From Acinetobacter gerneri DSM 14967 = CIP 107464 = MTCC 9824 (GTDB lineage: Bacteria; Pseudomonadota; Gammaproteobacteria; Pseudomonadales; Moraxellaceae), in NCBI RefSeq assembly GCF_000368565.1, contig NZ_KB849545.1:50304-114303 (forward strand): a stretch of DNA of 64,000 bases, written 5' to 3'. The notes under the pieces were generated by a model. The model did no database searches, had not been told where the DNA came from, and saw only the letters and a program-made list of their open reading frames with translations. This document shows, piece by piece, positions 10,890-13,254 of this stretch. Each line of letters begins with the position of its first letter. Positions within the stretch are counted from its first letter, which is position 1. Position numbers and translations under genes: made by a program.

Positions 10890-10976
10890 TTTACGTTCAT
10901 TTTCAAGCAAGTTTCAACAAAATCGAATGTGAATTTATCCTATAAAAATACTTCTATTCATTTGATTTATACCACA

Positions 10977-11438
10977 TCAAGATGTTTGTTTTTGCTTCCA
11001 AAACTCGTATAACTCAAAAGGTAAATTTGTTGAAAGTTGCACAAATTGCAGACCTTCTTGACGATGTGGTTCCTGACGTAATTTTTCAGCAATAGCTGCT
11101 GTAGACAATCCAAATGGCTCTGCATCAGCATTTGAATAGGCATAAACAATTTTTTCTATGCCAGCCATTCTCAAAGCAGCAAGGCACATCGGACATGGTT
11201 GACCACTTGCATATACAGTACAATCTTTCAAAGTTAAACTTTTCAAATTTTCACACGCTTGACGCAAAGCGTTAAGTTCAGCGTGAGAGGTCGGATCACC
11301 ACTCGTCAAAATCTGATTTACACCTTGGCTAACGACCTCACCATTTTTTACAATCACTGCTCCAAATGGGCGACCACCTTGCTCTACATTATCTTTTGCA
11401 AGATAAATTGCTTGTTGTAAAAAACCTTGATCGTCCAT
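10977..11438 (-). CDS. Nucleoside/guanine deaminase, CMP/dCMP deaminase family
   Basis: The 153-residue enzyme has the zinc site of the cytidine/deoxycytidylate deaminase family: HAE (His ligand and catalytic Glu, in TSHAELNALRQA) and PCPMC (two Cys ligands). The pattern GGRPFGAVIVKNG, TSGDPTSHAE and a C-terminal FELYEFWK resembles guanine deaminase GuaD-type enzymes more than tRNA adenosine deaminase TadA, but the substrate is not certain. The start ATG follows GAGGAAATTT. It is convergent with rluB. Confidence 0.85.
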   Translation of the reverse strand: MDDQGFLQQAIYLAKDNVEQGGRPFGAVIVKNGEVVSQGVNQILTSGDPTSHAELNALRQACENLKSLTLKDCTVYASGQPCPMCLAALRMAGIEKIVYAYSNADAEPFGLSTAAIAEKLRQEPHRQEGLQFVQLSTNLPFELYEFWKQKQTS

Positions 11439-11571
11439 AAATTTCCTCGATATCGCTTAGATCTGATTGAACATTTTCAGCCTAACATATTTTCAACAAT
11501 CACCTTAAAAGTTGCTATATTTTACCTAATTATTCACATAAAAGATTGAAGCTGATCTTGATCGAATTTTT

Positions 11572-12263
11572 CATGTATTCTGTAGATGATCATTTTTATT
11601 TAAATATCTCATTTGCTATATAAATCATATGAAAAAGAATAATCCCACCACTCAAGCAACAAAAAAGAAAATATATTTGATTCTATTTGCAATCTGGTTG
11701 ATCGCTTCTACGTCTATTGCCTATCAAGCACAGTTTATTGGTGGTTATCTCGTTCATGTCCGAGGAATGACACAAGAGGAATATCAATATCCACTTGAAC
11801 ACGTGCAGATGCTTTGCGGATTTTTAGGGCTACTCATTCTCAATGAAGCTTATCTAATCACAAGCGAATTCAGTTATAACCATCCTATTTTTTGCTATTT
11901 TATCTGCTCCATCGCTCCACTATTTCTCAGTGCAATAGCTGTATTTAGCGCGATGCATGCAGCAGATTATTTAATCAATTTTATCCTACTCGTCCTACTT
12001 ATAAGTCTGTTCCATTTTTTGATTTTGCCTTTTCTTTTAGTTAAATTTCACAAAATAATTCACAAAAAATACTGAAGCTACTCAAGGATAAATTTCACAT
12101 GTATTCTGTACATGATCATTTTTATTTAAATATCTCATTTACTATACAAATTATATGAAAAAGAATAATCACATTACTCAAGCAACAAAAAAGAAAATAT
12201 ATTTGATTTTTTTGACGATCTGGTTGATCGCTTCAACATATATTGCCTATGAAGGACAATTTG
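11572..12263 (+). repeat. Tandem duplication of leader and gene start
   Basis: About 165 bases at 11572-11737 recur almost unchanged at 12098-12263 (offset 526). The repeat covers ~57 bases of leader, the ATG and about 35 codons. Beyond that the two genes diverge strongly although they stay homologous. Confidence 0.85.
11629..12075 (+). CDS. Unknown four-helix membrane protein, copy 1 of a tandem pair
   Basis: The 148-residue protein has a basic start (MKKNNPTTQATKKK) and about four membrane helices (roughly residues 14-33, 58-78, 85-110 and 113-135). A loop with EEYQYPLEHV follows helix 1, and FSAMHAAD sits at the end of helix 3. The downstream neighbour at 12155 is a paralogue with the same layout and a matching MHAA. 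The start ATG lies in a leader repeated before copy 2. I know no family for it; it could be a small inner-membrane protein of the kind often encoded in tandem. Confidence 0.65.
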   Translation: MKKNNPTTQATKKKIYLILFAIWLIASTSIAYQAQFIGGYLVHVRGMTQEEYQYPLEHVQMLCGFLGLLILNEAYLITSEFSYNHPIFCYFICSIAPLFLSAIAVFSAMHAADYLINFILLVLLISLFHFLILPFLLVKFHKIIHKKY

Positions 12264-12613
12264 AGTCACCTTACAGATTTCATCCTGCAGGGGTAGAGCA
12301 CCTTCCTTTTGAGTATCCGTTATTTGGCGTCACGTTCGCTATAAGCTTATATTTACTTGAGATGCTAAATTATGCATTGCTCTTTTCAAACAGCTCGATC
12401 GTCAAACATCCTATAATATCGTACCTCTTCGCGTCCATTATTCCATTCAGTCTTTTATGCATCGCATTTTTAGGTGCGATGCATGCTGCTCCATTTTGGG
12501 GGGCATTTATTCAAGTGATTCTTTTTACATCACTCTTCCATTTATTGATTTTACCGCCAACGATCAGTCATTTTAGGCGCAACCATCAAATTGAAGAAAG
12601 CAATGAAAATTAA
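12155..12613 (+). CDS. Unknown four-helix membrane protein, copy 2 of a tandem pair
   Basis: This 152-residue paralogue of the preceding gene shares the first ~35 residues almost exactly (KKKIYLI...IWLIAST.IAY). The rest is diverged. The loop reads PAGVEHLPFEYPLFGV and helix 3 ends in LGAMHAAPF. It also has about four membrane helices and ends in a charged tail (HQIEESNEN). Its stop overlaps the convergent bioD stop by three bases. The strong match in leader and first codons suggests recent duplication or gene conversion at the 5' end only. Confidence 0.65.
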   Translation: MKKNNHITQATKKKIYLIFLTIWLIASTYIAYEGQFESPYRFHPAGVEHLPFEYPLFGVTFAISLYLLEMLNYALLFSNSSIVKHPIISYLFASIIPFSLLCIAFLGAMHAAPFWGAFIQVILFTSLFHLLILPPTISHFRRNHQIEESNEN

Positions 12614-13254
12614 TTGATCACTGGAATATCAATCCATTTTGCTTTAGGAAAATGCTTCGCTAAATAGGCTTTCAGGTAATCTGAAGTATCTTTGGAAATT
12701 AATGCATCTTGAGACTCATCATTGAGATTATATGCCAATGCATAGAGTTCGATTTGACGTGATTTAAGCGCTTCAAGACTCAGTAAAGTATGATTAATGC
12801 TACCTAAACGTCCCGAACTAACCAAAATTACTGGAAATTTCTTTTGCTCGATATAGTCAATGGTCAGCAAATCAGTGGTGAGTGGAACCATTAAACCACC
12901 TGCCCCTTCAAGCAGTACGGTGTCGTATTTTTCACACAATGCCTGAGTAGCATCTTCTATTTTTTTAAAATCAATTTCACGAGAATCAATCTTAGTCGCC
13001 AAATGCGGTGAAGCAGGATAAGTAAAAATTTCTGGCATGGTGAGCTTGCTTTCATCTTCAGGAAACCACCCCATTCCCATGATCTCACGATGCTGTTCAA
13101 TATCTTCTGAAATATCAGTATTTCCAGTTTGAACCAGCTTTTGCGTGATGGTTTTAATGCCCTGTTCATTCAATTGTTTTGCCAAAATACCTGTGGTAAA
13201 CGTCTTACCAATACCTGTATCTATACCGCTAATAAAATAAATAGGAGCTGTCAT
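12610..13254 (-). CDS. bioD: Dethiobiotin synthetase BioD
   Basis: BioD closes the ureido ring of dethiobiotin from diaminopelargonate, CO2 and ATP. The 214-residue protein has the P-loop GIDTGIGKT (residues 10-18) and the late LLEGAGGLMVPL motif. The start at 13254 is chosen because it overlaps the bioC stop (ATGA) and has a GGAGAG site; the longer frame to 13275 adds seven residues. It is the last gene of bioA-bioF-bioC-bioD. bioB is not in the window. Confidence 0.95.
   Translation of the reverse strand: MTAPIYFISGIDTGIGKTFTTGILAKQLNEQGIKTITQKLVQTGNTDISEDIEQHREIMGMGWFPEDESKLTMPEIFTYPASPHLATKIDSREIDFKKIEDATQALCEKYDTVLLEGAGGLMVPLTTDLLTIDYIEQKKFPVILVSSGRLGSINHTLLSLEALKSRQIELYALAYNLNDESQDALISKDTSDYLKAYLAKHFPKAKWIDIPVIN

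Follow-up and report, generated by a model that had tools for sequence, protein, structure and literature searches.

Two neighbouring genes of Acinetobacter gerneri DSM 14967 raise the question of how tandem paralogues can come to carry almost the same leader and gene start on clearly different coding sequences. Both are located in a stretch of 64,000 nucleotides of contig NZ_KB849545.1, which was analyzed as a whole and is called the window in the following. They lie in tandem on the forward strand between a deaminase-like and a bioD-like gene on the reverse strand (Table 1), the labels of the two flanking genes being presumed from their sequences. A sequence-only reading of this locus had explained the pattern either by gene conversion at the 5′ end or by selection on a common leader.

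Table 1. Features of the gene pair and its surroundings, in window positions.
Feature	Position	Strand	Description	Basis
Gene 1	11629-12075	+	predicted membrane protein of 148 aa, about four long helices	ORF, translation, family profile, low-confidence model
Gene 2	12155-12613	+	paralogue of gene 1, 152 aa	ORF, translation, family profile
Deaminase-like gene (presumed)	10977-11438	-	upstream of gene 1	
bioD-like gene (presumed)	12610-13251	-	downstream bound of the slot	
Repeat copy 1	11516-11736	+	34 nt resembling the gene 1 tail, followed by a spacer (22 nt), the leader (57 nt) and codons 1-36 (108 nt)	
Repeat copy 2	12042-12262	+	last 34 nt of the gene 1 CDS, followed by a spacer (22 nt) and, for gene 2, the leader (57 nt) and codons 1-36	
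Leader of gene 1	11572-11628	+	53 of 57 nt identical to the leader of gene 2	
Leader of gene 2	12098-12154	+		
Sequence before gene 1	11516-11549	+	resembles the final 34 nt of the gene 1 CDS (26 of 34 identical)	

The two genes are connected by a direct repeat of 221 bp, which aligns without gaps at an offset of exactly 526 nucleotides and with 84% identity. Near-identical 5′ stretches at this offset, including a leader of about 57 bases, had been described before, and the description proved accurate. Its limits (11572 to 11737) hold for the core of the repeat only: the start lies 56 nt farther upstream, so that the repeat reaches into the last 34 nt of the gene 1 CDS, and position 11737 is already a mismatch between the copies. 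The block is colinear and runs on into the tail of gene 1. Identity varies between its parts, with 26 of 34 positions in the tail, 12 of 22 in the spacer, 53 of 57 in the leader and 94 of 108 in codons 1 to 36. Past the end of the repeat it drops abruptly, as the next 60 nt match at only 23 positions.

With exact seeds of 14, the repeat search reported no other direct repeat of 45 nt or longer in the 64-kb window, and the 221-mer, slid ungapped over the forward strand, reached a maximum of 42.1% identity in the rest of the window. Neither 20,000 dinucleotide shuffles nor the 63,828 other positions of the window yielded a match as good as the 26 of 34 nt in the tail. The sequence at 11516-11549 is therefore either the 3′ remnant of another copy or the source of the last 11 codons of gene 1 during a duplication of the front end. 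A comparison of the C-terminal tails of family members is compatible with these 11 codons being native as well as with their being captured upstream DNA.

Further copies elsewhere in the genome, for which a search had been suggested, were not found by protein and profile searches, both of which returned just these two genes. A DNA search of the same genome gave the two copies and 15 short matches of at most 35 nt (best E 0.003). An assembly duplication, named earlier as a way in which the observation might fall, is unlikely, because the bodies differ throughout and both genes lie within one contig of 564,812 bases.

A max-chi2 scan of the codon alignment placed the break between the similar and the diverged part at nucleotide 108 (window position 11736), with a value that was reached in none of 2000 codon shuffles. 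The block offers few synonymous sites, and in codons 1 to 36 6 of 21.5 of them differ (pS 0.28, pN 0.09), compared with about 51 of 73 in the bodies (pS about 0.70, pN 0.48). Divergence changes sharply along the pair at synonymous sites as well, which is the pattern of a recombination chimera. Protein constraint alone would not produce such a synonymous contrast between block and body. The block stops right after predicted helix 1, at residue 36, and both proteins therefore carry a near-identical N-terminal tail and first helix. Hydropathy places this helix at residues 15 to 33. The structure model of gene 1, which is of low confidence (mean pLDDT 62.7, pTM 0.41) and was too poor for a fold search, shows a longer helix from residue 6 to 43.

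The divergence of the remaining codons, as stated in the earlier reading, is evident from the 60 nt past the break and from the bodies, which share 39 of 112 amino acids (35%) and 47% of their nucleotides. Two genes of other species, from the genomes G112 and G086 (row G086a), are nearer to the bodies than these are to each other. The body of gene 1 shares 45 of 111 residues (41%) with G112 and 41 of 108 (38%) with G086a, and that of gene 2 shares 47 of 115 (41%) and 49 of 108 (45%), respectively. The other rows of the alignment were as far from each body as its window neighbour or farther, e.g., gene 2 and G030 with 32 of 116. For the N-terminal parts, the window genes agree with each other in 28 of 36 residues and with seven other rows in at most 15 of 28; a second alignment gave 16 of 28 for gene 1 and G174. 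A stretch of 8 N-terminal residues is common to both window genes and absent from G112 and G086a.

N-terminal identity exceeds body identity by more in the window pair than in any other of the 276 pairs formed by 24 rows. The next two pairs are G174-G063, with 22 of 28 amino acids in the N-terminal part and 48 of 114 in the body, and G174-G080. Their excess looks like protein constraint, since pS in the N-terminal part is 0.69 and 0.66, respectively. In the N-terminal tree, which comprises 32 columns only, gene 1 and gene 2 are joined with moderate support (83/89). In the body tree they are not joined, yet a sister pairing was not rejected (AU p 0.38), so topology does not prove a separate ancestry of the bodies. 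A DNA search for the segment in the other 174 genomes of the genus, in which two candidates were scored per genome, gave no match at E 1e-5, and no relative carrying both genes was found by it.

Three results lend good support to an exchange of the 5′ end: synonymous divergence shifts at the limit of the block, this limit is sharp, and each body resembles the genes from G112 and G086 more than its neighbour in the window. Of the two explanations offered earlier, it is this one that is supported. From the observed repeat, its boundary, the synonymous contrast and the comparison with relatives we infer the recombination event itself. Gene 1 and gene 2 are probably old tandem paralogues, between which the 5′ block was exchanged or captured by recombination within the genome after the bodies had diverged. 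Judged from the sequences, the bodies of these members of an Acinetobacter membrane-protein family would have diverged first. A block of about 220 bp, consisting of the end of the preceding sequence, the leader and the first 36 codons, would then have moved between the copies. This may have happened by non-reciprocal gene conversion, or by a short tandem duplication of the front end of gene 1 followed by its fusion to the body of gene 2. The latter route would explain the start of the repeat inside the tail of gene 1 without an extra assumption. Furthermore, an identity of 47% in nucleotides is low for RecA-type gene conversion, and a duplication with fusion, or an older event, is favoured because the bodies are only this much alike. 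As a result, two different bodies would now have one upstream region and one signal-anchor segment in common.

The other explanation offered earlier, selection since an old duplication on a common leader and gene start, e.g., on a binding site for a regulator or a small RNA or on an RNA element extending into the CDS, is unlikely and was not upheld as the main cause. The leader is indeed kept better than the adjoining spacer (Fisher p 0.0002), a comparison that was chosen post hoc, as were those with the tail (p 0.05) and with the third codon positions of the block (29 of 36; p 0.10). The leader may also exceed the tail, whereas its advantage over the third codon positions and over the whole coding part of the repeat (p 0.30) is not clear-cut. 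In addition, the subgroup of G174, G063 and G080 also keeps the N-terminal part of the protein better than the body. Against selection, however, stands the similarity of synonymous sites over 36 codons, with an abrupt limit, as well as the lack of the leader in relatives. Within 200 nt upstream of the genes of 16 relatives it was not found, the best ungapped matches covering 24 to 31 of 57 positions. For 15 of the 16 these were at shuffle level (reached by at least 85 of 500 shuffles); the best match of the remaining one, G121, with 31 of 57, was reached by 11 of 500 shuffles and is not striking among 16 tests. An alignment of the upstream regions of four genes likewise contained no common leader. 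The two other tandem pairs of the genus, in G086 and G037, do not have starts common to both genes. They are a weak control on leaders, because hardly any leader precedes their second genes: the one in G086 follows after a gap of 16 nt and the one in G037 overlaps the first gene.

A structured leader RNA was rejected, as folding gave no signal (z 0.06 to 0.58) and no Rfam match was obtained at the gathering score. One sub-threshold snoRNA match (E 0.28) lies outside the leader, at 10930-11053. A scan for consensus promoters gave no site inside either leader and one in front of gene 1, at 11493-11521; in total, 3 such sites were counted in the region, compared with a mean of 6.2 in shuffles. 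The main pattern can be explained without selection on a common leader. That the leader is better kept would follow from a second, shorter exchange as well as from a constraint on it after the first exchange; such a constraint is possible. A leader specific to the species is also possible, since the 16 relatives are distant.

Two further explanations are compatible with part of the data. A recent duplication of the whole gene followed by very fast change of the body would agree with the body tree, in which the sister pairing was not rejected. It is very improbable, however, as synonymous sites are near saturation in the body but not in the first 36 codons, protein-level selection alone does not speed up synonymous change, and pN of the body is below pS. 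Horizontal transfer of gene 2, or of gene 1, from a relative carrying this leader and start would suit the patchy distribution of the family and the varying content of its slot between rluB and bioD, but has very little probability: the DNA search of the other 174 of 175 genomes (two candidates scored per genome) gave no match at E 1e-5, and a plasmid origin was rejected because gene 2 matched no plasmid at E 0.01.

Both window genes belong to the same membrane-protein family, as their whole length matches its profile (E 2.4e-43 and 6.1e-42), partly by construction, since both are among the 24 members from which the profile was built. Within the genus, 30 of 175 genomes gave matches to it, and 27 of the 169 genomes of good quality did so. 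With gene 1 alone as query, matches were found in 18 of 175 genomes including its own, that in G112 at 2.4e-26. In a sample of the taxonomic family, 5 of 119 genomes matched the profile, all of them Acinetobacter, i.e., one of 16 genera; the protein family was absent from the 15 other genera sampled. A total of 36 family ORFs were found, 4 of which were repeat finds in overlapping loci, and 24 of the 32 distinct ones were aligned (alignment A1). Left out were those of G098, G143, G164 (short), G152, G010 and G023 and two pieces of G013. The start codons were partly picked by hand (an internal ATG for G112, one codon off ATG for loci L014 and L018, and TTG for L021:1468). Several members look broken or shortened, with internal stops in G004 (L087) and G164 (L039), two pieces in different frames in G013 (L027) and a partial match in G026 (L085), which suggests that family genes can be lost.

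The most regular feature of the family is a GAMHAPPYW-like motif, which in the relatives mostly reads MHAPPYW or MHAPPF. MHAA, observed earlier at the end of helix 3 in each protein, is present in both translations; in gene 1 it occupies residues 109 to 112, and helix 3 spans residues 86 to 109 in the low-confidence model. MHAA is the version of the family motif in the window genes and does not indicate a special conservation between the two. A terminator-like stem with a T run was seen within the CDS of gene 2 (12487-12505, forward strand), overlapping the codons right after MHAA, with 2 overlapping sites compared with 0.5 in shuffles.

The family is without a usable name in the libraries searched. 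The Pfam family FAM177 (PF14774) matched gene 1 only, i.e., one of 24 members, with 20.7 bits below its cut-off of 25. Other weak matches in Pfam and NCBIfam (best E 0.0035 and 0.0049) were scattered over unrelated families. PHROGs and PADLOC gave no match at E 0.01, and no chain among the solved structures matched at E 10.

By their neighbours, the members of 28 of the 30 family genomes could be placed in one of three alternative slots, G004 and G026 remaining unplaced. Seven are located beside rluB and/or bioD, twelve between a gene resembling rsmI and one resembling an FAD monooxygenase gene, and nine beside a DEAD-box helicase gene and/or a suhB-like gene; all these neighbours are named presumptively. 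At E 0.001, none of the 28 genomes had family matches in two slots. In G030 and G174 the member adjoins rluB, with bioD elsewhere. The deaminase-like gene also sits between rluB and bioD in some relatives. For bioD, 30 loci out of 165 matching genomes were inspected, and for the deaminase 30 of 42 loci. Besides the genome of the window, the inspected bioD loci came from the 29 genomes that matched best; in these, rluB was near bioD without a deaminase or family match between them in 16, a deaminase lay between them in 3, a family member in 3, and rluB was missing from the inspected stretch in 7. The content of the interval thus varies by species and comprises no matched gene, the deaminase, family members or other genes. 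The latter include an ORF in L093, presumably macro-domain-like, an ORF of 335 aa in L147 and shorter ORFs in L135 that look similar to the latter ORF by eye.

A wider interpretation, in which the leader and helix-1 segment would be a reusable front-end module passed between tandem copies, and the family a group of diversifying membrane proteins in three fixed slots with one slot per species, is quite improbable. If true, new bodies would be attached to a single control region with its membrane anchor.

A literature search returned nothing on this case. Chimeric genes arise by duplication and deletion in tandem arrays. The window pair resembles such chimeras, as the 5′ end of one copy stands on the body of another with a sharp junction. 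It differs from them in that the history of the junction is known here only indirectly and the tail of gene 1 belongs to the repeat. The finding is ordinary as a mechanism, because the process is already well known, and leaves general views unchanged. As a by-product, an unnamed membrane-protein family came to light, to which both genes belong by profile; its MHAPPYW-like motif recurs among the members, its genome positions are slot-like, and it was found here in no genus but Acinetobacter. Gene conversion and concerted evolution of prokaryotic paralogues have been described for 26 genes (PMC6053082). There, paralogues within one genome are likewise more alike than the remainder of their history would suggest, from which recombination was inferred, and two passages of the study deal with tandem copies. 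Unlike in those cases, here the 5′ block alone is alike, in the one genome in which the pair was seen, and the bodies are as diverged as genes of different species. The pair is thus a clean small example of paralogues that ended up with one common front end on different bodies.
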